A stretch of 64,000 nt of DNA. Origin: Gemmatimonas sp. Its GTDB lineage: Bacteria; Gemmatimonadota; Gemmatimonadetes; Gemmatimonadales; Gemmatimonadaceae. A model generated the notes under the pieces. It searched no databases and was not told the DNA's origin. It was given only the letters and a program-made list of their open reading frames with translations. Numbering within the stretch: the stretch's first letter is position 1; each line of letters starts with the position of its first letter. Below, one piece after another: positions 10,536-34,018 of this stretch. Made by a program: the position numbers and the translations under genes. Location of the stretch: contig NZ_JAPZSK010000005.1 of NCBI RefSeq assembly GCF_027531815.1, forward strand, positions 186,001 through 250,000, written 5' to 3'.

Positions 10536-11759
10536 TCAGGGAGAACCGGCGGCGCCGGTGATCAGCAGACGCGTGAGTCCGGCCAAGGCACCGCCGAAGA
10601 GTACCCACCCGGCACCAACACGCGTGCCAAGCAGCAGCAGAGTGGCCGAGACCAAGATAGCGAGCGACCACGGCGAAAGAGCGATGCCGCGTGCCATGAG
10701 CAGGACCACCCCCGCCATGAAGGCCAGCGTGACGGCATTCACGGCGTCGAGGGTGCGGCTCAGTACCGGCGACCGGCGCAGGCGCGCCACCAGTGGCGCC
10801 GTCACGGCAACACCCACGAACGCCGGCAGAAAAATCCCGGCCGTGGCCGCGGCGGCTCCAGCGTGGCCGCCCAGCAGATAGCCCACGAAGGTCGCGGCCG
10901 AGAAGACCGGCCCCGGAGTCACCTGCCCTACGGCAATCGCATCCAGCAGTTGTGCTTCCGACAGGACGCCCAGTCGCGTCACGAACTCGCCGCGCAAGAA
11001 GGTGAGCAGCACGTAGCCGCTGCCAAAGAGTACGCTGCCGATCTTCGCGAAGCTCAGAAACAGCGCCCCCGCGGAGAGCGAGGCGGTGGCTTTCACGGCG
11101 GCCGCTCCCGCGGCGGTCCACATGGCCGCGGCTCCGGTGGGCGTTACCGGCTGGGGTAGGCTCGCACTCCCCAGCCCCAGCCACGGTCCGATGGCGAACC
11201 CGGCACCCGACGCGTTGGCGCCACGCCAGGAGAGGACCGCATACAGCAGGGCCGCGACCAACGCCCCCAGCAGCAGCACCAGCTCCGACACACCCAGCAG
11301 CACCCCCACGAAGGCCAGCATCGCCAGCACCACGCCAAGCCGCGTGCGCGCGAGGCTGCCCTTGAGCCGCCAGATGGCCTGCGCGACCACGGCCAGCACC
11401 GCCGGCTGCATCCCCTGGAACAGCGCCTGCACCTCCACACGCGTCCCCAGAGCGACGTACGCCCACGCGATCCCCCAGACCAGCAGCACCGCCGGGGCGA
11501 TGAAGCAGCACCCGGCCACCACCAGTCCGGGCCACCCGGCACGACGGTAGCCCAGGTGAATCGCCAGTTCGGTGGAATTGGGGCCGGGAATGAGATTGGC
11601 CGCGCCGATGAGGTCGGCGAAGTCGTCGCGCGACAGCCACGCGCGCCGAGTGACGAGTTCGTCGTCCATGGCGGCGATGTGCGCGGCCGGACCGCCGAAC
11701 GCCGTGAGCCCCAGGCGGGTGAAGACCAACGCCACTTCGCGTACCGGAGTCATCGGCAT
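10536..11759 (-). CDS. chrA: Chromate transporter, long-chain ChrA family
   Basis: About 407 residues with two homologous halves, as in long-chain CHR proteins that expel chromate from the cytoplasm. The N-terminal half carries LTAFGGPAAHIAAMDDELV and LIGAANLIPGPNSTELA. The second half repeats the pattern (FAKIGSVLFGSGYVLLTFLRGE, AIAVGQVTPGPVFSAATFVG). About ten membrane segments are visible. Two ATGs are close together (11757-11759 and 11751-11753) and either may be used. A 96-bp gap separates it from the divergent methyltransferase gene. Confidence 0.93.
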   Translation of the reverse strand: MPMTPVREVALVFTRLGLTAFGGPAAHIAAMDDELVTRRAWLSRDDFADLIGAANLIPGPNSTELAIHLGYRRAGWPGLVVAGCCFIAPAVLLVWGIAWAYVALGTRVEVQALFQGMQPAVLAVVAQAIWRLKGSLARTRLGVVLAMLAFVGVLLGVSELVLLLGALVAALLYAVLSWRGANASGAGFAIGPWLGLGSASLPQPVTPTGAAAMWTAAGAAAVKATASLSAGALFLSFAKIGSVLFGSGYVLLTFLRGEFVTRLGVLSEAQLLDAIAVGQVTPGPVFSAATFVGYLLGGHAGAAAATAGIFLPAFVGVAVTAPLVARLRRSPVLSRTLDAVNAVTLAFMAGVVLLMARGIALSPWSLAILVSATLLLLGTRVGAGWVLFGGALAGLTRLLITGAAGSP

Positions 11760-11855: not shown

Positions 11856-14800
11856 GTGCTCACTCTCCGCTCTGCTGCCCGACTGCTCGCGCGTGCCGAC
11901 ACGCGCCCCGATGGTGCACTCAACCCGTTCACGCCGCTGCGCGCAATCGGCCAGGTGCTGGGCTTCGGCCCTGCGGCACCCGTCGATGCCGCCAACAGGC
12001 GCGCCCTCGGCATCGCCCCCCTCACCCGGCGCGCCGAACTGGCGGTGGGCGCGGGAACCCTGCGCCTCCTGCTCGCCGACCTCGCGGCGCCACTGGCAGA
12101 CACCCTCCCCATCGACGACGCCCGGGAGCGTACCCGACGACTGGCCGCCTCGCTCTGCCGGTCCGCCCCCGATCGCCTCTGGTGCCTGCTCACCGTCGAC
12201 CGGCGAGCCGATGGCACCACCCTCTGCCTCGCCATCGCCTCCCCGGGCCAGGGTACCACCCGCGTGGCCGCGCTCCGCGTCGAGTGCACCCGCGTGCTCG
12301 ACTCCGATGCGGAAACGCTGCGCACCCTCGCCGCGGTCGGTGAGCCCGATGATCTGCTGCGACACGCCCGCTTTGCCGACATCCTGCAGCGTGACGCACT
12401 CGGCGGACGATTCTACCGCGCCCTCGAGCAGGCGGTCGATACCCTCGCGCTGTCGCTGCACGCGCCCCACTCCACGCGCGGCCCCGCCGCAACTGCCGCG
12501 ACCACACCCGCCCACCAGCGCGCCCCCTCGCGCGAGGAACGGCGCGAACTCGCCCTGCTCTGCGCATCACGATGCCTGTTCCTCGCGTTCCTCGAAGCGA
12601 AGGGATGGCTCGATCAGCGGCGCGACTTCTTGCTCACGGAAACGGTCAAGCAGCTGGAAACCGGCGGGCGCCTCCATGATCGCCTGCTCCGCCCCCTCTT
12701 CTTCGGTACCCTCAACACCCCGGCCCGCCAACGCGCGGCCGCCGCGCGCGCCTTCGGTGCCGTTCCCTTCCTCAACGGCGGACTCTTCTCCCCGACCGCA
12801 CTCGAACGGCGGTGGCACCGCTGGCGCTTTTCCGACGATGCCGTCACCCATCTCGTCGTCGCCGTCATCGACCGGCACCGCTTCACGGCGCACGAAGACT
12901 CCGCGCAATGGTCCGAAGCCGCCGTCGACCCTGAAATGCTCGGGCGCGCCTTCGAGGGACTCATGGCCAGCAGCGAGCGACGACGCTCCGGATCGTACTA
13001 CACGCCCCCTGCGCTGGTCGGCCACACCGTCCACGCCGCGCTCACCACGCTCTTCCCCGATATCCCCGAGGCACTCACCCTCGCTGGCGAGACTGCCGCA
13101 GCCGACAGCACGGTCGTTTCCCCCGAGCAACGTGACGCGCTGCGCGCCCGCATCGAGGCGCTGCGGGTGATCGATCCCGCCTGTGGCTCCGGCGCCTTCC
13201 TCGTCCATCTCCTCGAACAGCTCGACGCCCTCCTCGCACGCCTCGGAGACCCGCGCGACACCCACATCCGCCGCCGAGACCTGCTCGCCCGCTCCATCTT
13301 CGGCGTCGACCGCCAACCCATGGCGGTCTGGCTCTGCGAGCTGCGCCTCTGGCTCTCCGTGATCATCGAATGCCCGGCCACACACCCCGACCGCATTCCA
13401 CCACTCCCCAATCTCGATCACCACATCCGCGTGGGCGATTCGCTCACCGGCGGAAGCTTCCAGTTCGCGGCGCCCAGCGCCCGCACCCTCGCCCGCCTGC
13501 GCGAGCGCTACGCACGCGCCGCCGGCGCCCGCAAGCACCGCCTCGCCGACACCCTCGACCGCGAGGAACGCCGGCGCGCCGTCAGGGAACTTGCCCGCCG
13601 CCGGGAGGCGCTGCAGCACGAACGTCGCACGCTGCTCACCGTGCTGCGCGGTCGCGATCTGTTTGGCGACCGCCGACGCCCGCAACGCGCCGAACGCCTG
13701 CGCCTCGACACGCTGCGCCAACACGCACGCGAACTGGCCGCGGAAACGCAACGACTGCACCTCGGCGCCGCCCTCCCCTTCCGCTTCGCCTCCGTGTTCG
13801 CCGATGTGGCCGCCCACAACGGCTTTTCGCTGGTCGTCGGCAACCCGCCGTGGGTACGCCCGCACGCGCTGGCCGCCAGCGAACGCCAGTGGCTGCGCCA
13901 CGAGTTTCGCGTCATGCGCGCCGCCACCTGGCACGCCGGCGCCACTCGCGCCGGAGCCGGTGCCGGCTTCGGCGCCCAGGCCGATCTCGCCGCCGCCTTC
14001 GTCGAACGCAGCGTGCACCTGCTCGCCCCACACGGTGTGCTCGCCCTGCTCGTTCCGGCCAAGCTCTGGCGCACGCTCTCCGGCGGAGGCGTCCGACGCC
14101 TCCTCCTCGAGGAAACGCAGCTGTGCCTCGTGCACGACTGGAGCCAGGCGCCCGCGCTCTTCGATGCGGCCACCTACCCGTCGCTCGTGGTGGCGCGACG
14201 CAAGGACGCCACCCCCGCCCGCCACGGAAGTCGCCGCACCCCCACCACCAGCCGCCACACACCACATCCCCACGCGGCCACGCCGTACACCGCCGCGCCC
14301 CATGCCACGCCGCCCCTCGTCCGCTGCGCCGTGACCACGCATCGCACGCGCTGGTTCGACCGCAGCGCCGAAACGCTCTCACTCCAAGGCGACCACGGCG
14401 CACCCTGGCTGCTGCTCCCACCTGCCGCCCACGCCGCATTCGAGCAGCTCCGCGCCGCCGGACCCGCGCTCGCCACCACGCCACTCGGCCGCCCACTCCT
14501 CGGCGTCAAATGCGGCTGCAACGCCGCCTTCGTGGTGCACGCCACTGAACACCACGACGATGGCGCAACCGTCACGGCACTCTCCGGCCCCGCGCGACAG
14601 GCCGTCATCGAGCGCACCCTCCTGCGCCCCGCACTCCGCGGCGACAGCATCGGCCTCGCCGCCGCACACGATGCCGCGCGGGGCGACACACCCGCCCCAC
14701 AGGACCTGCGCGTCCTCTGGACACACGGCCACGATGGACGTCCACTCAAGACCCTGCCCCCCGCCGCCACCCGCTGGCTCGCCCAATGGCGCCCCACCCT

Positions 14801-15299
14801 GCAGGCGCGCCGCGATGCACGACGCACCCACCCGTGGTGGACGCTCTTCCGCACCGAAGCCGCCCGCACCGATCGCCCACGACTCGTCTGGGCCGACATC
14901 GCACGCAGCATGCGCAGCACCGTGCTCCCCGCCGGCGATCCCACCGTCCCGCTCAACAGCTGCTACGTCATGCGACTCCCCACGCTCGCCGACAGCTACG
15001 CCCTCCACGCTCTCCTCTCCTCCTCCATCGCCAACGCCTGGCTCGGCGCACTCGCCGAACCCGCGCGCGGTGGATTCAAACGATTCCTCGGCTGGACCGT
15101 TGCCGCACTCCCCGTGCCCGCCGACTGGAATCGCGCCGTGCAACTGCTCCACCCCCTGGGGGAACAGCTGCTGCATCAGGAGCAGCAGGCACACGGTGCG
15201 CCCATCAATAGCGCCACGCTCGACGCCACCGTGCTGCAAGCCTACCAGCTGGCCCCCACCCTGCTCGCGCCACTGCTGGAGTGGCACCACCATGACTGA
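11856..15299 (+). CDS. Eco57I-like N6-adenine DNA methyltransferase (DrmMI/PglX-like)
   Basis: A 1147-residue protein that should transfer methyl from S-adenosylmethionine to adenine N6 in DNA. The N-terminal 350 residues are helical and of unknown role. SAM motif I is DPACGSGAF (440-448), the catalytic motif IV is NPPW (663-666), and the linker SYYTPPALV before motif I is typical of Eco57I/TaqI-type enzymes. The C-terminal region (about 880-1120) resembles a target-recognition domain: PLNSCYVMRLPTL, then GGFKRFLGWTVAALPVP. No nuclease motif (PD-ExK, HNH or PLD) was seen. The start is GTG at 11856-11858, without an obvious ribosome site. The stop overlaps the helicase start by eight bases, so the two proteins are translationally coupled. 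Confidence 0.88.
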   Translation: MLTLRSAARLLARADTRPDGALNPFTPLRAIGQVLGFGPAAPVDAANRRALGIAPLTRRAELAVGAGTLRLLLADLAAPLADTLPIDDARERTRRLAASLCRSAPDRLWCLLTVDRRADGTTLCLAIASPGQGTTRVAALRVECTRVLDSDAETLRTLAAVGEPDDLLRHARFADILQRDALGGRFYRALEQAVDTLALSLHAPHSTRGPAATAATTPAHQRAPSREERRELALLCASRCLFLAFLEAKGWLDQRRDFLLTETVKQLETGGRLHDRLLRPLFFGTLNTPARQRAAAARAFGAVPFLNGGLFSPTALERRWHRWRFSDDAVTHLVVAVIDRHRFTAHEDSAQWSEAAVDPEMLGRAFEGLMASSERRRSGSYYTPPALVGHTVHAALTTLFPDIPEALTLAGETAAADSTVVSPEQRDALRARIEALRVIDPACGSGAFLVHLLEQLDALLARLGDPRDTHIRRRDLLARSIFGVDRQPMAVWLCELRLWLSVIIECPATHPDRIPPLPNLDHHIRVGDSLTGGSFQFAAPSARTLARLRERYARAAGARKHRLADTLDREERRRAVRELARRREALQHERRTLLTVLRGRDLFGDRRRPQRAERLRLDTLRQHARELAAETQRLHLGAALPFRFASVFADVAAHNGFSLVVGNPPWVRPHALAASERQWLRHEFRVMRAATWHAGATRAGAGAGFGAQADLAAAFVERSVHLLAPHGVLALLVPAKLWRTLSGGGVRRLLLEETQLCLVHDWSQAPALFDAATYPSLVVARRKDATPARHGSRRTPTTSRHTPHPHAATPYTAAPHATPPLVRCAVTTHRTRWFDRSAETLSLQGDHGAPWLLLPPAAHAAFEQLRAAGPALATTPLGRPLLGVKCGCNAAFVVHATEHHDDGATVTALSGPARQAVIERTLLRPALRGDSIGLAAAHDAARGDTPAPQDLRVLWTHGHDGRPLKTLPPAATRWLAQWRPTLQARRDARRTHPWWTLFRTEAARTDRPRLVWADIARSMRSTVLPAGDPTVPLNSCYVMRLPTLADSYALHALLSSSIANAWLGALAEPARGGFKRFLGWTVAALPVPADWNRAVQLLHPLGEQLLHQEQQAHGAPINSATLDATVLQAYQLAPTLLAPLLEWHHHD

Positions 15300-17841
15300 C
15301 CGCCTGCGCACCGTCCGCCACCGCTTCGCCACCGCCCTGCTGCCGCCGCTCCCCCCCGAAGCGCTCGGCGACGTGCGCCTGCTGCCCCACCAGCGCCACG
15401 CCGCCGCACGGCTGCTCGCCATGCTCGAGCGCCACCGCGGTGCCCTGCTCGCCGATGCCGTCGGGCTCGGCAAGACCTTCACGGCACTTGCGGTGGCACG
15501 GCAGTACGCACACACCACCATCATCGCCCCCGCCACGCTCGTAACCATGTGGCAGGCCGCACTGCTACGCAGCCGGCAAGCCGCCATCACCGTGCATTCG
15601 CTGCACCAGGCCTCGGTGAAACCACTCCCCGCCTTCGCCGATCGGGCCACGGCATCGTCGGCACACCACCGGCGCGTGCTCGTCATCATCGACGAAGCCC
15701 ACGCACTACGCAATGAGCAGACCACCCGCTACCGACATGTCGCACAGGCTGTCACGGGCTGCGATGTGCTGCTCCTCAGCGCCACACCACTCCACAATCG
15801 GACGCGCGACCTCGAAGCACTCTTTGCGCTCTTCCGCGGTCATCACGCCACCCCGCTTCCCCGTCACCTGCTCGCCACCCTCATCGTGCGACGTGATCGC
15901 CTTCACGAGACGCCCGGGCACGGTAGCACGACGGGTGGCGGGGCAGGCGGGGAGAGCCCGACGAGTGGACCGCGCGCCGCACCGCCGCCACAACGCATCC
16001 ACCCCCCACACACGATCGCCCAACACCCCGGCACCCTCGATCGCCTGCTGGAACTCCCCGCCCCACTTCCCGCACGCCACGGCGCCGCCAGTGGCGCCCT
16101 CATCAGGCTGGGGCTGCTCCGCGCCTGGTGCTCCAGCGACGCCGCACTCACCCATGCCATCACCCGGCGACTGCAGCGCGCCGCAGCGCTCCGCTCAGCC
16201 CTCGATGCGGGACGACATCCCACCGCCCAGGAGCTCGCCAGCTGGCTCGTAGGCGATGAGGCCACCGACATGCAGCTCGGCTTTCCCGAACTGCTCGTCG
16301 AACACGCACTCGACCCCCCGCACGCACCCCAGCCGATGATCGAGGTGCTCGAGCGCCACACCACCGCGCTGCGCGCCCTGCGCGATCATCACCGCGCAAC
16401 CGCCCGCGCCGACCGGCTGCGGGCCGCGTACGTCCGGCACGTATGCCAAGGCCACAGCGAGGTGCCCGTCGTAGCCTTCTCCCAACACACCCGCACCGTG
16501 GAGGCGCTGTTTCGCGCCCTCGCCGACATTGCCGGCGTGGGACTGCTCACCAGCCGGCAGGCGCGCATCGCCAGCGGGCCGGTCACGCGCACCGCGCTGC
16601 TGGAAGCCTTCGCCCCGCGCGCCCACGGCCGCCCGCCGCCCCCCACCCACCAGCGTGTCACCCTGCTGCTCGCCACGGATCTCATCGCCGAAGGTGTGAA
16701 CCTGCAGGATGCCGGAGTCGTGCTACACCTCGATCTGCCGTGGACCCATGCGCTGCGCACCCAGCGCAGCGGACGCGTGCTGCGGCTGGGGTCCCCGCAT
16801 GCCGTTGTCCACGAGTATCGCCTGCGTTGCGCACGGCACATCCGACAGCACCTGCGCATCGAGGAGCGCGTGGCACACAAGGCCGCACTCGCCGCACGGC
16901 TCGTTGGCAGCACCGCCCGCCGCTCGGCACCCGACCGCAACACCCGCTGGCTCGAACTCCTCGCCACATGGATGCCACCGTCCACCAACGGAGACCACGA
17001 CCTGCCACACGCACGCCCGGTGAGATGGGCGAGGTGGCGCGCCGCCCCGCGCTCACTGCACGGCGCACTCGTGCTGCTGCACACGACCCACGGGCCGCTG
17101 GCGCTCGCCGTCGTGTTGCACCCGCAGCGCGCCTGGGTGTCGGCACGCCCCGATGCCCTGCTCGCCGTCGCAGAAGGGCACTGGCCACCACGATGCCGGC
17201 GACCACCGTCTCCACCGCCGGTCGGCGCGCGCTCGCATCAGGTGACGTACGCCGAACCGGACGTGCCGTGGCCCGCGGTACGCCGACGCATCGCCCGCGC
17301 CGTGCAACGCTGGCTAGCCCACGAACGACAGCGTCGGCTCAGCGGCCTGGCAACGGACGCCACCGATCAGCGGCCAGCCAATCATCGGCTGGCGGGCGTC
17401 GAGAAGCACAGTACCGAGCAACAGCTGACCCTGCACTGGCTGCGTTCCCTGCTGCAGAGCTGGAGCGCCGTCGAGCGCCAGCGTTGGGCGGCAGAGATCG
17501 CCGCGGCGCGAAGGTGTATTGCCGCAGCCACCGGCGCTGGATGCGAACCGGCCTTGCGACGCTGGCGCGCCGGCGCAGCCGCTCACGGTGAAGCCGCTCA
17601 CGGTGAAGCCGTGCGCGCGTGGCGCACCTTTCCGGAACTCGTGCGCACCTCCGAGCACGGCCGCAGCCCGGGGCGGGCTCTTGAGGGCGGAGGTGCGCAC
17701 GTCGACGCGTGCGTGGTGGTGCTGCCGCGGCCGGTCGCCGAGGGGGATGCGCCGAGGCGCCAGCCCCTGAGCGCCGGTGCTCCCCACCGGAGTGCTCGCT
17801 CCCGGGCCACCGGCGCTGATGAGCGGGGCCTCAGCGGTTAG
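15292..17841 (+). CDS. SNF2/DEAD-like helicase partner of the methyltransferase (DrmD-like)
   Basis: An 849-residue superfamily 2 ATPase. Motif I is GLGKT (58-62), motif II DEAH (134-137) and motif III SATP (163-166). The C-terminal RecA domain has TDLIAEGVNLQDAG (from about 462) and the arginine-finger region QRSGRVLRLG (from 491), a SNF2/RapA-like arrangement. A low-complexity Gly/Pro/His linker lies around 205-250. The last 250 residues are unrecognised and Arg/His/Ala-rich, with a small duplicated AHGEA unit (bases 17579-17611). ATG at 15292 sits inside the methyltransferase stop. It probably translocates on or remodels DNA for the modification or defence function of the pair. No nuclease domain seen. 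Confidence 0.87.
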   Translation: MTDRLRTVRHRFATALLPPLPPEALGDVRLLPHQRHAAARLLAMLERHRGALLADAVGLGKTFTALAVARQYAHTTIIAPATLVTMWQAALLRSRQAAITVHSLHQASVKPLPAFADRATASSAHHRRVLVIIDEAHALRNEQTTRYRHVAQAVTGCDVLLLSATPLHNRTRDLEALFALFRGHHATPLPRHLLATLIVRRDRLHETPGHGSTTGGGAGGESPTSGPRAAPPPQRIHPPHTIAQHPGTLDRLLELPAPLPARHGAASGALIRLGLLRAWCSSDAALTHAITRRLQRAAALRSALDAGRHPTAQELASWLVGDEATDMQLGFPELLVEHALDPPHAPQPMIEVLERHTTALRALRDHHRATARADRLRAAYVRHVCQGHSEVPVVAFSQHTRTVEALFRALADIAGVGLLTSRQARIASGPVTRTALLEAFAPRAHGRPPPPTHQRVTLLLATDLIAEGVNLQDAGVVLHLDLPWTHALRTQRSGRVLRLGSPHAVVHEYRLRCARHIRQHLRIEERVAHKAALAARLVGSTARRSAPDRNTRWLELLATWMPPSTNGDHDLPHARPVRWARWRAAPRSLHGALVLLHTTHGPLALAVVLHPQRAWVSARPDALLAVAEGHWPPRCRRPPSPPPVGARSHQVTYAEPDVPWPAVRRRIARAVQRWLAHERQRRLSGLATDATDQRPANHRLAGVEKHSTEQQLTLHWLRSLLQSWSAVERQRWAAEIAAARRCIAAATGAGCEPALRRWRAGAAAHGEAAHGEAVRAWRTFPELVRTSEHGRSPGRALEGGGAHVDACVVVLPRPVAEGDAPRRQPLSAGAPHRSARSRATGADERGLSG

Positions 17842-17849
17842 AGTTGGGG

Positions 17850-18494
17850 ATGGCCCAACCTGCCCTGCTCTTCGATCTCGACGGTACCCTCATCGATTCC
17901 ATTGGCCTGCTGCTGGAGTGCATGCAGTACGCCTTTGCGGAGCGGGACCGGGTCCCCACCACCGCGGAATGGGTGGCGGGAATCGGCACCCCGCTGCGCA
18001 CCCAGTTGCACGCGTGGTGCACCGATGCCGCCGACGTGGAGGCCATGGTGGGGCGCTATCGCGACTACCAGGACCTCCACCTCGAGCGGCTGACCACACC
18101 GTTTCCCGAGGTGCTCGACACCATCCAGTGGGCGCGTGCCGCCGGGTACCCCACGGCCATCGTGACCAGCAAGGGGAAAGGGATGACGAAGCGCTCCCTC
18201 GACCATGTGGGACTGGGCGACGCGTTCGATGCGGTCGTGACCTTCGAAGAGACCACTCGGCACAAGCCCCTCCCCGACCCGGTGTGGTTGGCGCTCGAGC
18301 GGTTGGGCGCCAACGCCAACGCCGCCCTCTTCGTGGGCGATTCCCCACACGACATGCACGCCGGTCGTGCCGCGGGGGTGACCACCGCGGCCGCCCTCTG
18401 GGGGCCCTTCAGCCGCGAGGAGCTGGCCGACGCCAAGCCAAACCACTGGCTCAGCCGCTTCGGGCAGCTGCGGGAGATCGTGGAGGGACGCTGA
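17850..18494 (+). CDS. HAD-superfamily phosphatase (Gph/PpaX-like)
   Basis: A 214-residue haloacid-dehalogenase-type hydrolase. Motif I FDLDGTLID holds the nucleophilic Asp, motif II is IVTSKGKG, motif III lysine is in TRHKPLPDP, and motif IV is FVGDSPHDM. The helical cap between motifs I and II is of the C1 type seen in phosphoglycolate phosphatase and PpaX pyrophosphatase; the substrate cannot be told from sequence. ATG at 17850 follows the helicase stop by eight bases. A TTG two codons upstream is possible. The gene may simply trail the helicase transcript. Confidence 0.9.
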   Translation: MAQPALLFDLDGTLIDSIGLLLECMQYAFAERDRVPTTAEWVAGIGTPLRTQLHAWCTDAADVEAMVGRYRDYQDLHLERLTTPFPEVLDTIQWARAAGYPTAIVTSKGKGMTKRSLDHVGLGDAFDAVVTFEETTRHKPLPDPVWLALERLGANANAALFVGDSPHDMHAGRAAGVTTAAALWGPFSREELADAKPNHWLSRFGQLREIVEGR

Positions 18495-22401: not shown

Positions 22402-23670
22402 ATGTCACGCACCTCCACCTCGTCCGCTGCGCTGCGTCCTCACGCGGAGTCCCCGCCGGTCGGGGCCGAATCGGCTGGGCGGGCGCTGCCGGCCACCATT
22501 TCCCCTGCGCTGCAGGCCGACGTGCACCGGGTGGTGGCGGGTGGCCGTCGGGCCAGTGCGCCCTGGTCCACGGGGGTGCCGGCGCTCGACCGGGCGCTGG
22601 GGGGCGGGATTCCCCGGGGGCGTATCACGGAACTCACCGGCCCGTTGGCGGTGGGCAAAACGGCGCTGCTGCGGCAGGTGGTGGCGCAGGTGCTGCGGAG
22701 CGGGGCCTGGGTGGCCTGGATCGATGCCGGCCGCACCTTGGCCCCGGCCCCGTGGGCCGACCTAGGGGAGCGATTCGTCGTCATCCGCCTCCCCGAGGCC
22801 AAACGAGCGGCCTGGACCACCGATCTGCTGCTGCGCAGCGGGGTCTTCGGGCTGGTCGTGCTCGACGGGGCGCCGCCCCTCTCCCGGGTGCACGGCGTGC
22901 GTCTGGCGCAGCTCGCTCGTGAACGCGATGCCGCCTGTGTGGTGCTGGAGCATGCCTCTCCCGGGGAAACGCGTGTCCAGCGGCTGGCCGGCACGGTGCG
23001 TGTGCGGGTGGCGCTGAGCCCTCCGCCATCCATGCACGCTCCGGCAGGGCGTCCCTCGGCTTCCCGCGCCCCCACTCCTGCCTCCCGCTCCCTCCCCCCC
23101 GCCCCCTGCTCCCTGCTCACGATCGAAAAGGGCGCCGTCCCCCTCACCAGCAACCGGCCCATCGAGGTCCCCCGTGTCGTCCTCCTGGCGCGTCGCGTGT
23201 GTGCGCATCCCGAGATTCCCGATCGGCGCGGGGTGGCGCGCAGCGCGCGTCGTCCCTGGGCCCCCAGTGGCAACGGCGTCGACACCGGCAACGACGCCCA
23301 GCGCAGCGAGCACCCCGTCACCTGGGGGGGACTCGGTGTTGGCAGCCACGACCTGTACGGAACTGACCTTCCGGGACATCCAGCTCGACTTGCTGCTGGA
23401 CTCGACGAACCCGGCGACCGCCTCGGCAGCGACCGCTTCGAGGACACCGACCGGCTCCGGCTCGACCGGGAGCTCGACCGGCGTACCCGCGACTGGACCA
23501 CATACCGTGGGCGACGGCGTGCCGCCGAATCAGGGTTCGGGCGACGCGGACGCCGCGAATTGGCGCGCGAGCGTACCGGGGCACTCCTCGGCAGCGGCGG
23601 CGGGCAGTCGGCCCCGCGGAAAGAGCGCCCCGATCCCGCCCCCGCCGCCGCCCCTCCCGCACTGGGATGA
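22402..23670 (+). CDS. imuA: ImuA-like RecA-fold protein of the mutagenesis cassette, with long C-terminal overlap
   Basis: A 422-codon frame. Residues about 35-215 form a RecA/SulA-like ATPase core: TGVPALDRALGGGIPRGRITELTG, then Walker A GPLAVGKT (80-87) and LVVLDGAPP. ImuA works with ImuB and DnaE2 in damage-induced translesion synthesis. Family members are usually about 200-260 residues. Here the frame continues another 160 residues past a Pro/Ser-rich stretch (about 215-245) and overlaps imuB by 497 bases. The extra tail is charged and low in complexity. It could be read-through after an insertion or an error, or genuine dual coding. ATG at 22402 is right behind SOS-like box 2. Confidence 0.83.
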   Translation: MSRTSTSSAALRPHAESPPVGAESAGRALPATISPALQADVHRVVAGGRRASAPWSTGVPALDRALGGGIPRGRITELTGPLAVGKTALLRQVVAQVLRSGAWVAWIDAGRTLAPAPWADLGERFVVIRLPEAKRAAWTTDLLLRSGVFGLVVLDGAPPLSRVHGVRLAQLARERDAACVVLEHASPGETRVQRLAGTVRVRVALSPPPSMHAPAGRPSASRAPTPASRSLPPAPCSLLTIEKGAVPLTSNRPIEVPRVVLLARRVCAHPEIPDRRGVARSARRPWAPSGNGVDTGNDAQRSEHPVTWGGLGVGSHDLYGTDLPGHPARLAAGLDEPGDRLGSDRFEDTDRLRLDRELDRRTRDWTTYRGRRRAAESGFGRRGRRELARERTGALLGSGGGQSAPRKERPDPAPAAAPPALG

Positions 23671-30095: not shown

Positions 30096-30157
30096 CGGGG
30101 TGGTACAGGAGTACTGGGGAGGTACGTCCAAGAATAACGCGCGAACACGAGGATGTG

Positions 30158-30201
30158 ATTCAGACGCGATGCAGACGTGATTCGGACGTGATTCGGACCT
30201 C
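30158..30201. repeat. Four tandem 11-bp units between pyp and dnaE2
   Basis: Units at 30158-30168, 30169-30179, 30180-30190 and 30191-30201 read ATTCAGACGCG, ATGCAGACGTG, ATTCGGACGTG and ATTCGGACCTC. The last two contain TTCGG exactly 11 bp apart, the spacing of the SOS-like boxes. Helical phasing suggests cooperative protein binding, perhaps serving both divergent genes. Confidence 0.65.
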
Positions 30202-30230
30202 ATCCAGCCCCCTCGCGCGCGCCGCTTGTT

Positions 30231-30248
30231 TTCGGTGTATATTCGGTG
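30231..30248 (+). promoter_or_regulatory. SOS-like direct-repeat box 3, upstream of dnaE2
   Basis: TTCGG at 30231-30235 and 30242-30246 (11-bp phase), overlapping a -10-like TATATT (30238-30243). The dnaE2 ATG is at 30251, so the message would have almost no leader. Sequence and placement match the imuA box. Confidence 0.65.
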
Positions 30249-30250
30249 CG

Positions 30251-33200
30251 ATGGCCAGTCCCGCGTACGCCGAACTCCACTGTCATTCCGCCCTCTCGCT
30301 CCTCGACGGCGCCTCCCTCCCCGAGACGCTCGCCGAACGGGCGGCGGCGCTGGGCTACCGGGCCCTCGCTCTCACCGATCACGACGAGATGGGGGGCGTG
30401 GTGCGCTTCGGCACCGCCTGTGCGGCCCTGGCGCTCCCGGGCATCCTGGGCGCTGAGCTCACGGTCCGCATGCCTGAGCTCGCCGGACGTGGCGGCGAGC
30501 GGCGCACGCATCTGGTGCTGCTCGCCGAATCGCGCACCGGCTACCACAACATTGCCACGCTCGTCACCCGGGCCCGCATGGACAGCGACCGCGGGCGCCC
30601 CAGCGTCCCGTGGGCTCTCGTCACCCGGCATGTGGAGGGGGTCACCGCACTCACGGGCTGTCCCCGGGGCTGGCTGCCGCAACTGCTCGCCGAAGGGCGT
30701 GCCGATCTCGCCTGGACCGCCGCCTGTGAACTGCGCGATGTCTTCGGCGCACAGCTGGCCATCGAGTGCTGGGATCATCGGCTTCCCGAAGAGCGCGCGC
30801 TGGTGAAGCAGCTGCGCCCGCTCGCCGCGCGGCTGGGGGTGCCATGGGTGGTCACCAACAACGTGCACTACGCCGATCCCTCGGCGCGCATCGTGCACGA
30901 CGTGCTGCACACGCTGCGCCACGAACGCACGCTCGACACCATGGGCACGCGCCTCAAGCCCAACGCCGAATGGGCGCTCAAGCCCATTGCGCGCATATAC
31001 CAACGCTGGCGTGGGGCCGAAGAGGGGGTGCGCGCCACCGTGGACATCGCCGAGCGCTGCGCGTTTCGGCTGGAGCAGCTCAAGCCCAGCATGCCGGCGT
31101 TTCCGCTGCCGCCAGGCGTGACGGCCAACGAGTATCTCTCGCGGCTCGTGGAGCAGGGCGCGCACGAACGCTGGGGCACCCAGCGTACGCCCCGGCACGA
31201 CCGGCAGCTGGCGCACGAACTGGGGATGATCCGCAAGCTCGAACTGGCGGGCTTCTTTCTCATCGTGTGGGACATCGTACGCTTCGCGCGGCGTGAGGGC
31301 ATTCTCTGTCAGGGGCGCGGCTCGGCGGCCAACTCCGCCGTCTGCTTCTGCCTCGGCATCACGGCGGTTGATCCCATTCGCATGGAGCTGCTCTTCGAGC
31401 GCTTTCTCAGCGAAGAGCGCCAGGAACCGCCCGACATCGACATCGACTTCGCGCACCGCGACCGCGAGCGCGTGCTGCAGTACGTGTACAACCGCTACGG
31501 GCGTGAACACGCGGCCATGGTGTGCGAGCAGATCACGTGGCGCGGCCGCAGTGCCGTGCGTGATGCTGCGCGCGTGCTGGGGTTCAGCACCGAGCAGGCG
31601 GACATGCTGGCGGCGCTGAGTGACCGGTTCAGTGCGCGGAGCACGGCGGAGGCGTTGCGTGTGGAGGAGGTCGAGGGTGGGGGTGAGGTCGGGGGGAAAC
31701 GCGATCGCACAGTGCGCACCGAGGCGGTGGAGAGCACCGGGCACCGCAACAGCAGTGACGCTGCACGCTATGGCCAGCACATGATCCGCGGCACCGAAGC
31801 GACGACCACGGCGCGCGTTGTCCGTGAGCGCGCCCGCACGGTGGCCGCGACGCGCACGTCGTCCTCGGTGCCCGCCACCGCCTCGGTGAGCGCTGCGGGC
31901 ACGCGTTTCTCCCCGACCCAGCCCCCGACCCAGCCCCCGACCCAGCCCCCCAAGGGGATCACCGAGCGCGACGCGACCTGGCAGCAGCTCATGGATCTGC
32001 GCGCCGAGCAGAAGCTCGCGAGCGACGAACACGCGCAGCTGGGCCCGCTCGCCAAGGGCGCCGAGCGTGAGACCCACACCGAGTTCGTGGAGGGGCGCAA
32101 CCGCACCACCGCCACACGTGAGGGCCCGACGGGGCGTGAACTGCTTCAGCGTGCCGGACTCGATCCCGACGATCCGCGCGTGCGACAACTCGCGCATGTG
32201 GTGAACGGCCTGCACGCCTTGCCCCGTCACCGGTCCATTCACGTGGGAGGGTTCATCCTCACCGAAGAGCCGCTCGGTGGCGTAGTGCCACTCGAACCCG
32301 CGTCCATGCCCGGGCGCACCGTCATCCAGTGGGAGAAGGACGATCTCGATCCCGTAGGGCTCGTGAAGATCGACCTGCTCGGGCTCGGCATGCTCACGGT
32401 CGTGCAGGACTGCCTGCTGTACATCCGCCACACGCGCGGGGTGACCGTGGATCTGGGGCAGCTCGACATGAGCGACGCCGCCGTGTACGACGTGATATGC
32501 CGCGCCGATACGGTGGGGCTCTTCCAGATAGAAAGCCGCGCGCAGATGAACACGCTGCCGCGCCTCAAGCCACGCTGCTTCTACGACCTCGTGGTGGAAG
32601 TGGCGCTCATCCGCCCCGGGCCCATTCAGGGCGAGATGGTGCATCCGTACCTGCGCCGGCGTGCAGGGCTCGAGCCGGTCACGTATCCGCACCCCAGTGT
32701 GGAGCACGTGCTGCGCCGCACGTTGGGCGTGCCGCTGTTTCAGGAGCAGGGGATGCAGGTGGCCATCGCCGCCGCGGGCTTCACTCCCGGGCAGGCCGAT
32801 GTGCTGCGACGCGCCATGGGACACAAGCGGTCACGCGAACGCATGGCGGCCATCTGTGAGGAGCTCATTGCCGGCATGCAGCGTAACGGCATTCCCGAGG
32901 AGACCGCGCGGCGCATTTACAACCAGATCAACGCCTTCGCCGACTACGGCTTCCCCGAGAGCCACGCCGCGAGCTTCGCGCTCATCGTGTACGCCACCGC
33001 GTGGCTGCGGCACTACTACGCGCCCGAGTATCTGTGCGCCATCCTCAATGCGCAGCCCATGGGCTTCTATTCGCCCGGCACCCTCATCGAGGATGCCAGG
33101 CGTCACGGGGTGCGCGTGCGGCCTATCGATCTCACCAGGAGCGTCTGGGATCACAGCCTCGAGCTGTCCGACGGCCGTGTGCTGTACGCCCACGATGGCA

Positions 33201-34018
33201 CCGTACGGTGGGGGCACAACAGGGAGCAACAGACGACTGACAACTCCAACTCAAAACTCGACACTTCTCCCCGGCCACGCGATGTATCAGTACGGCTCGG
33301 CCTCCGCCTCGTGCGCGGTCTCGGCGCGCGCGCCCGCCGCAGTCTCGAAGCCGCGCTGCGCGACGGCCCGTTCACCAGCGTGGAGAATGCGGTACAGCGC
33401 GTGACCCTCGACCGGGCCGCATGGCGCCGCCTTGCCGAGGCCGGCGCCTTCGACACCATGTTCGCGCACGAGCCGCCCGAACGCCGTCGCCGAGCCGCGT
33501 TGTGGGAGGTCATGGCTGTCTCGCGCGGACCGGCATTGCCACTCGCGCCTCGCGCAACGCCCACCACCGCCCAGCGTGCGCCGCTGCCCGCCTATACGCC
33601 GGTGGAGCTCACCGAAGCCGACTTCCGCATGACCGGTCTGTCGCTCACGGGGCATCCCATGGTGCACGTACGGGCACATCTGGCCCTCAACGGCGTGCGT
33701 ACCGCGCGCGAAGCGCACGAGACCGGCAAGGACGGGCAGCCCGTGGCGGTGGCCGGTCTCGTCATCTGCCGGCAGCGCCCCGGCACGGCCAAGGGCTTCG
33801 TCTTTCTCACCCTCGAAGACGAAACGGGGATGATCAACATCATCATCACCCCCGACCGCTTCGAGCAGCACGCGCTGCTCATCTCCACCACGCCGCTGCT
33901 GCTCGTGCGCGGCACCCTGCAGGTGGAGCAGCACGTGGTGAACGTGCGCGCGAAGCAGTTCCGCGCCCTCGAACTGGGCGGGGGCGAACAGCATGTGAAG
34001 GGGCACAACTACCGGTAG
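30251..34018 (+). CDS. dnaE2: Error-prone DNA polymerase III alpha-like subunit DnaE2 (ImuC)
   Basis: A 1255-residue C-family polymerase; relatives have about 1050-1100. The PHP domain opens the protein (ELHCHSALSLLDG, TDHDEMGG). Catalytic acids lie in PDIDIDF (394-400) and VGLVKIDLLGLG. FPESHAASFALIVYATAWL is typical of DnaE2. A helix-hairpin-helix (about 1017-1050) and an OB fold near the end (GLVICRQRPGTAKGFVFLTLEDE) follow. Extra length comes from an in-frame insert (about 470-610) partly flanked by an inverted repeat, and a short Asn/Gln/Thr-rich insert near 985-1010. I chose ATG 30251, three bases after SOS-like box 3; upstream frame lacks homology. It should act with ImuA and ImuB. Confidence 0.94.
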   Translation: MASPAYAELHCHSALSLLDGASLPETLAERAAALGYRALALTDHDEMGGVVRFGTACAALALPGILGAELTVRMPELAGRGGERRTHLVLLAESRTGYHNIATLVTRARMDSDRGRPSVPWALVTRHVEGVTALTGCPRGWLPQLLAEGRADLAWTAACELRDVFGAQLAIECWDHRLPEERALVKQLRPLAARLGVPWVVTNNVHYADPSARIVHDVLHTLRHERTLDTMGTRLKPNAEWALKPIARIYQRWRGAEEGVRATVDIAERCAFRLEQLKPSMPAFPLPPGVTANEYLSRLVEQGAHERWGTQRTPRHDRQLAHELGMIRKLELAGFFLIVWDIVRFARREGILCQGRGSAANSAVCFCLGITAVDPIRMELLFERFLSEERQEPPDIDIDFAHRDRERVLQYVYNRYGREHAAMVCEQITWRGRSAVRDAARVLGFSTEQADMLAALSDRFSARSTAEALRVEEVEGGGEVGGKRDRTVRTEAVESTGHRNSSDAARYGQHMIRGTEATTTARVVRERARTVAATRTSSSVPATASVSAAGTRFSPTQPPTQPPTQPPKGITERDATWQQLMDLRAEQKLASDEHAQLGPLAKGAERETHTEFVEGRNRTTATREGPTGRELLQRAGLDPDDPRVRQLAHVVNGLHALPRHRSIHVGGFILTEEPLGGVVPLEPASMPGRTVIQWEKDDLDPVGLVKIDLLGLGMLTVVQDCLLYIRHTRGVTVDLGQLDMSDAAVYDVICRADTVGLFQIESRAQMNTLPRLKPRCFYDLVVEVALIRPGPIQGEMVHPYLRRRAGLEPVTYPHPSVEHVLRRTLGVPLFQEQGMQVAIAAAGFTPGQADVLRRAMGHKRSRERMAAICEELIAGMQRNGIPEETARRIYNQINAFADYGFPESHAASFALIVYATAWLRHYYAPEYLCAILNAQPMGFYSPGTLIEDARRHGVRVRPIDLTRSVWDHSLELSDGRVLYAHDGTVRWGHNREQQTTDNSNSKLDTSPRPRDVSVRLGLRLVRGLGARARRSLEAALRDGPFTSVENAVQRVTLDRAAWRRLAEAGAFDTMFAHEPPERRRRAALWEVMAVSRGPALPLAPRATPTTAQRAPLPAYTPVELTEADFRMTGLSLTGHPMVHVRAHLALNGVRTAREAHETGKDGQPVAVAGLVICRQRPGTAKGFVFLTLEDETGMINIIITPDRFEQHALLISTTPLLLVRGTLQVEQHVVNVRAKQFRALELGGGEQHVKGHNYR
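31687..31918. mobile_element. MITE-like in-frame insert in dnaE2 with 17-bp terminal inverted repeats
   Basis: Left end 31687-31703 and right end 31902-31918 are inverted copies matching at 16 of 17 positions (GGTCGGGGGGAAACGCG against its complement). They enclose about 198 bp. The element lies in the non-conserved linker where this DnaE2 is about 150 residues longer than usual. No transposase and no clear target duplication were seen, so a non-autonomous element is an inference. Confidence 0.5.
31912..31950. repeat. Three tandem 13-bp CCCCGACCCAG-type units in dnaE2
   Basis: The unit CCCGACCCAGCC repeats about three times, encoding TQPPTQPPTQPP. It overlaps the right end of the insert described at 31687-31918. 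Confidence 0.75.
33211..33276. repeat. Low-GC insert in dnaE2
   Basis: A patch rich in AACAG, GACAACT, AACTC and AAAACTC interrupts otherwise very GC-rich coding DNA. It encodes a polar stretch (HNREQQTTDNSNSKLD) just before the helix-hairpin-helix region. Composition unlike its surroundings suggests a small inserted repeat that kept the frame. Confidence 0.5.

Follow-up and report, generated by a model that had tools for sequence, protein, structure and literature searches.

A conserved adenine methyltransferase–SNF2 ATPase gene pair of Gemmatimonas and related families: a candidate housekeeping epigenetic system

Orphan adenine methylases such as Dam take part in replication and repair and in the regulation of genes; CamA of Clostridioides difficile, an orphan adenine methyltransferase carried by all members of its clade, acts in sporulation (PMC8187626). 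The core methylases Dam, CcrM and CamA are described as lone actors. CamA, a protein of 577 aa, is reported to be rare outside its species; M.BseCI is the modification half of a restriction–modification system. We know of no SNF2 partner for either CamA or M.BseCI. In fungi, methylation by the cytosine-class enzyme Dnmt5 needs ATP hydrolysis by an SNF2 domain located in the same polypeptide (PMC7862722). In the eukaryotic DDM1/HELLS partnerships with DNMTs the SNF2 motor is a separate chromatin factor and the methylated base is likewise cytosine. Adenine methyltransferase and SNF2 helicase genes adjoin and overlap in class 1 DISARM, where they are accompanied by drmA and drmB, and in BREX the PglX/BrxX methyltransferase is found with BrxHII, pglZ, brxC and other genes.

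The locus described here lies in a 64,000-nucleotide stretch of Gemmatimonas sp. DNA (the window), part of contig C5 of a 4.3-Mb genome (G000), and consists of a gene for an adenine methyltransferase followed by one for an SNF2 ATPase. The two form a core, vertically inherited two-gene unit of the order and of related families, and the unit is under purifying selection.

Architecture of the two genes

The initial annotation had placed the pair between chrA and a HAD phosphatase gene. Its coordinates, frames and start codons are confirmed, as is the 8-bp overlap between the two reading frames (ATGACTGA, 15292-15299), and Pfam matches to both enzymes and to the flanking genes bear out the arrangement (Table 1). 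The methyltransferase protein matches Eco57I (3.6e-17) and N6_Mtase, the helicase protein SNF2-rel_dom and Helicase_C. The overlap suggests that the two genes are probably translationally coupled; the HAD gene begins 2 bases past the helicase stop. Besides chrA and the HAD gene, the neighbours of the pair in the window encode an aminotransferase, a NUDIX protein, a gamma-glutamyltranspeptidase (GGT), a sigma factor and DUF4097 proteins. The GC content of the pair equals that of its surroundings, and a mobile element was rejected: the neighbours include no integrase, and neither a tRNA nor a break in composition is present. As a separate observation, third codon positions of the methyltransferase and the helicase core (11856-16930) show a strong excess of C on the coding strand, with a position-3 G-C skew of -0.44 and -0.31, respectively, against about -0.17 to +0.09 in the neighbours; the same excess is present in three congeneric loci (L072, L078 and L065) and absent in a fourth (L067).

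Table 1. Coordinates of the pair, of the parts of its two proteins and of the adjoining genes in the window
Feature	Position	Strand	Remarks
Chromate transporter chrA, divergent	10536..11738	-	Chromate_transp Pfam match, 247 bits
N6-adenine DNA methyltransferase (gamma-class), 1147 aa	11856..15299	+	GTG start
Methyltransferase residues 1-178, unrecognised alpha/beta N-terminal domain	11856..12389	+	without conserved nuclease-type residues
Methyltransferase residues 179-370, helical spacer common to MmeI and BrxX/PglX	12390..12965	+	FLEAKGWL, FFGTLNTP and FLNGGLF motifs
Methyltransferase residues 371-785, catalytic domain	12966..14210	+	DPACGSGAF (440-448), GNPPW (662-666)
Methyltransferase residues 835-1147, specificity (TRD-like) and C-terminal part	14358..15296	+	aligns with M.BseCI and CamA
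SNF2-family ATPase/translocase, 849 aa	15292..17841	+	8-bp overlap with methyltransferase gene
SNF2 motor core, helicase residues about 19-540	15346..16911	+	
Helicase tail, residues 545-849, predicted mostly helical	16924..17838	+	fast-evolving, no invariant residue, no family match
HAD-family hydrolase	17844..18494	+	HAD_2 Pfam match, 135 bits

Structures of both proteins were modelled with AlphaFold2 from family alignments (pLDDT 84 for the methyltransferase and 79 for the helicase). The predicted methyltransferase matches CamA, M.BseCI, MmeI and BrxX. In Foldseek CamA ranks first (E about 1e-20), with a VIA Z of 20.3 and an rmsd of 2.9 over 520 residues; it shares with the window protein the gamma-group motif order, the C-terminal specificity domain and the lack of a paired nuclease. 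The structural comparison is best for M.BseCI, with a Z of 22 and an rmsd of 2.8-3.0 for about 500 residues, and M.BseCI also heads the matches of the sequence profile (4e-20, as against 3.6e-16 for CamA), both profile alignments spanning the catalytic and specificity domains. The resemblance to BrxX (Z about 15, from residue 179 onwards) extends to the helical spacer and the catalytic layout. What sets the window protein apart from both CamA and M.BseCI is an N-terminal extension of roughly 345 residues.

The first 350 residues had been described as unrecognised. This description stands for about the first 178 residues but not beyond, since known methyltransferases can be aligned with the structural model from residue 146 (MmeI) or 179 (BrxX) on; almost no listed structural match covers residues 1-145, and residues 1-178 are barely covered. 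Within this domain only R90, W109, D151, R172 and L177 are invariant, and searches for Pfam families, PDB sequence matches and conserved nuclease-type residues gave none. Type IIG/IIL enzymes of the MmeI type carry an N-terminal nuclease of the PD-(D/E)XK class, in which acidic and lysine residues are conserved: no conserved set of this kind is found in residues 1-178, and the alignment with MmeI starts at its residue 156, past the nuclease.

The helicase protein has a two-lobed SNF2 core with Walker A, DEAH, SAT and QR.GR motifs. Its fold is closest to the cores of chromatin remodellers, with Z scores of 17-19.5 to INO80, SRCAP, Sulfolobus SNF2, Chd1 and ZorD, and Mot1 and RapA are among the matches. 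The tail had been called unrecognised, and so it is from about residue 545 to 849: almost no listed structural match covers residues 560-849, and the best PDB match, a designed helical binder (E 0.005), was taken to reflect composition. The initial annotation had further suggested that the unknown ends of the two proteins could hold an effector. This idea is unsupported, because neither end has conserved catalytic residues or a family match; a nuclease in either was likewise rejected for want of conserved residues and of a Pfam or convincing PDB match. The ends may yet contain a novel domain. No signal of coevolution between the methyltransferase N-terminus and the helicase tail was detected, the partial correlation (0.20) lying below that of most other pairs of parts.

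DPACGSGAF and NPPW in the methyltransferase, and Walker A, DEAH, SATP and QR.GR in the helicase, are invariant or nearly so throughout the family, for which reason both enzymes look active. In restriction and BREX methylases the specificity region is usually the most variable part. Here the specificity half has a mean identity of 53%, compared with 55-60% for the catalytic halves, and a single fixed target motif would be the natural reading of such conservation.

Distribution, linkage and ancestry

A profile of the methyltransferase finds a match in 149 of the 163 near-complete genomes of the order, 145 of them at E<1e-80 and four weak or partial (G043, G089, G096 and G167). By rank, again for near-complete genomes, the gene is present in 16/16 of the genus, 96/105 of the family (29/29 genera) and 146/159 of the order (55/57 genera); the helicase is likewise found in 16/16 of the genus. 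Across the phylum the methyltransferase signal is bimodal: it is strong in families f1-f3, which belong to the order, and in f7 and f8, which belong to the class, and falls elsewhere to weak, paralogue-level matches, with the exception of one f5 genome (G221).

That the two genes are conserved as a unit in other genomes is borne out by 51 of 53 loci, from six families, in which they are adjacent. Profile searches of the fetched loci revealed the methyltransferase followed by the helicase on the same strand in 46 of 47: 14/14 in the genus (leaving out the window itself), 13/14 in other genera of the family and 19/19 in f2, f3, f7 and f8. Further loci, drawn from weak or odd cases, are linked in 5/6, including that of the f5 genome. 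Two loci (L131, from the family, and L184) have an interrupted helicase reading, which is split or ends with the contig; in L131 the break involves a stop or frameshift. The exceptions to linkage are G057, where the methyltransferase is directly followed by a sigma-factor operon, and G167, with a truncated methyltransferase; they indicate that the partnership is not absolute. G057 is a complete genome of the family, in which the methyltransferase is kept (L137, 8000-12300) and the helicase is absent both at the locus and elsewhere: it offers a natural experiment on the need of methylation for the motor.

No helicase match better than about 1e-15 was obtained in the other genomes searched that lack a clear methyltransferase match, which suggests that loss of one gene goes with loss of the other. 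The pair is absent from about 8% of the near-complete genomes of the order and is thus not essential in every background; several genomes without it are small (1.8-2.6 Mb), others are not. Those relatives of the locus that bear a name are Gemmatimonas MAGs, and a contig scan by exact peptides of a single protein, which has no bearing on other phyla, returned four close relatives only. Outside the phylum a shallow search covered plasmids, phages and viral contigs and gave partial matches at about 22-35% identity (22-32% in viral contigs); carriage by phages or plasmids was rejected, the matches in both being weak and partial. Among the plasmids, one of Allomeiothermus silvanus (L205, 3060-10601) and one of Thermus oshimai (L206, 3804-10589) carry in a row a related methyltransferase gene, at least one unknown gene and a gene for a 1120-aa SNF2 helicase, possibly a mobile cousin system.

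Vertical inheritance is evident from trees of 26 genomes of the family (quick trees, LG+G4). The methyltransferase and rpoB trees have 15 of 23 splits in common, compared with at most 3 after label shuffling (n=1000), with no conflict at support >=95; the helicase tree has 13 splits in common with that of rpoB and one conflict at this level, the place of G018. Distances correlate with those of rpoB at 0.79-0.90 for the parts of the methyltransferase and the helicase core, and at 0.42 for the helicase tail. Comparison of the window with its nearest relative gives the methyltransferase a dN/dS of 0.26; the helicase core has 0.13-0.14 and the tail 0.51. The methyltransferase has two features in common with orphan core enzymes of the CamA, Dam and CcrM type: it is fixed across the clade by vertical descent, and no cognate restriction nuclease lies beside it.

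Within the genus the pair has a conserved chromosomal place in a collinear neighbourhood, which includes genes for the GGT, the NUDIX protein, DUF4097 proteins, the aminotransferase and a sigma-70-family factor; no defence gene is among these neighbours. chrA adjoins the pair in some congeners only and lies outside the unit. The HAD hydrolase gene stands beside the pair in the loci of the genus, and of 33 loci from other genera and families 13 have it nearby, a recurrence suggesting that it is possibly linked to the pair without being obligate. A gene resembling dicarboxylate symporters, named from sequence only, occurs near the pair in 12 of these 33 loci.

Proposed function and alternative readings

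Motors of the SNF2 family track along double-stranded DNA and displace proteins. The reading judged probable for the pair, short of any certainty, is a housekeeping epigenetic system, with an adenine methylase of the orphan type assisted by an SNF2 translocase that runs on ATP. A CamA/M.BseCI-type methylase without a nuclease would most likely methylate N6 of adenine in one conserved motif across the chromosome, and the motor, as a double-stranded DNA translocase, would spend ATP on clearing or remodelling DNA with bound proteins or, alternatively, on coupling substrate recognition to methyl transfer. In the simplest joint mechanism the motor would give the methylase access to DNA that is covered by proteins or newly replicated; alternatively, the motor could use ATP as a gate on methyl transfer, in the manner of the SNF2 domain of fungal Dnmt5 (PMC7862722). 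Methylation by the first protein, joint action of the two and the purpose of the mark are what we infer, as most likely, from the anatomy and evolution of the pair. The papers searched yielded no methylome, expression or knock-out data, and none of them deals with Gemmatimonas methylomes.

A more specific proposal is put forward tentatively: the adenine methylase may depend on its dedicated SNF2 motor for access to its sites or for their recognition. The pair would then be an independent equivalent, in bacteria, of the Dnmt5 and DDM1/HELLS partnerships, fixed across the order and several related families. The analogy, an SNF2 motor serving DNA methylation, is functional only: the pair is of the adenine class and encoded by two overlapping genes. 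What distinguishes it from the core methylases known so far is that methylase and motor are retained together and, in the genomes checked, absent together. Should the motor prove to be required, the maintenance of epigenetic marks by ATPases of the chromatin-remodeller kind would extend to bacteria, and a phylum that has been little studied would offer an epigenetic system shared by a whole clade and open to testing in cultured Gemmatimonas strains.

The initial annotation had offered a minimal stand-alone defence or epigenetic system, or a residue of DISARM. Descent of the pair from class 1 DISARM or BREX with loss of the other genes is very improbable, even though the enzyme classes are those of drmMI and drmD or of pglX and brxH. 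Both proteins were compared with the DISARM and BREX models and all scores fall far below the cut-offs: the helicase reaches 66 and 55 bits on the DrmD models (cut-offs 610 and 950), the methyltransferase 92 bits on DrmMI, over part of the profile, and 20-46 bits on the PglX models (cut-offs 400-900), and all 26 and 23 family members give equally distant matches. A congener, G015, provides a positive control, as it harbours the core pair (L077) and, at a separate locus (L122, 3060-15437), a complete class 1 DISARM, drmD-drmMI-drmA-drmB, with 1054, 1289, 914 and 227 bits, respectively. The pair is consequently not a residue of that system; its gene order is also reversed, drmD standing ahead of drmMI in L122. 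The reported lack of DISARM core genes and of a nuclease is borne out at the locus: drmA and drmB, both detected in L122 as a control, are absent from the neighbours of the pair in the window and from those scanned in other families (outside the genus neighbours were scanned in part for defence genes), and pglZ, brxC and brxA/B/F are missing from the window neighbours. BREX was thus rejected on scores and neighbours alike. In another genome (G024) a second overlapping SNF2-methyltransferase pair was noticed (L123, 3457-10181), with a helicase that reaches 284 bits on the DrmD model and so stays below the cut-off; the pair is possibly an undescribed DISARM-like pair.

Pairings of a methyltransferase with a helicase are typical of defence systems, which counts against the housekeeping reading, and to our knowledge BREX works without a known nuclease. 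The main rival, a stand-alone anti-phage system fixed across the clade, in which methylation would mark self and the SNF2 motor would load on unmethylated incoming DNA and block its replication without cutting, is nonetheless somewhat unlikely. The distant similarity of the pair to DrmMI, PglX, DrmD, BrxH and DpdE, and the joint occurrence of related genes on the Thermus and Allomeiothermus plasmids, are consistent with it; moreover, DISARM works without its nuclease DrmC, and a non-cutting block of incoming DNA has been proposed for DrmAB (PMC9142583). Near-universal vertical inheritance is, however, unlike that of arms-race systems: the DrmD model, run in the same way as the methyltransferase profile, exceeds its cut-off in only 3 of the 163 genomes of the order, a patchy pattern. 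The non-defence neighbourhood kept in the genus and the conserved specificity half argue in the same direction. Of the two stand-alone options, the epigenetic one agrees with the reading preferred here and the defence one is weakened by clade-wide vertical inheritance and a conserved place in the genus, and the minimal or residual DISARM/BREX defence reading appears mostly wrong; for methyltransferase-SNF2 pairs the enzyme classes alone are a poor ground for filing under defence. An improbable reading is that of a replication, repair or transcription-coupled factor, whose motor would act on stalled complexes as RapA or Mot1 do while methylation marks strand age or sites, gene regulation not being the main role. 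The remodeller-like fold, with Mot1 and RapA among its matches, and the part that Dam and similar orphan methylases play in replication and repair (PMC8187626) speak for it, but no conserved repair or replication neighbour was seen across the families.

Other genes of the same genome deserve mention. Another SNF2 protein is encoded on contig C2 of G000 (L121, 9053-12262) and matches the HKD+Snf2 family of PADLOC strongly, at 378 bits; contigs C17 and C23 contain further SNF2-like helicase matches. In the window, genes for a RecA-like protein (22402-23670) and a DNA polymerase III alpha-type protein (30155-34018), on the same strand, may represent an ImuA/DnaE2-type mutagenesis cassette.
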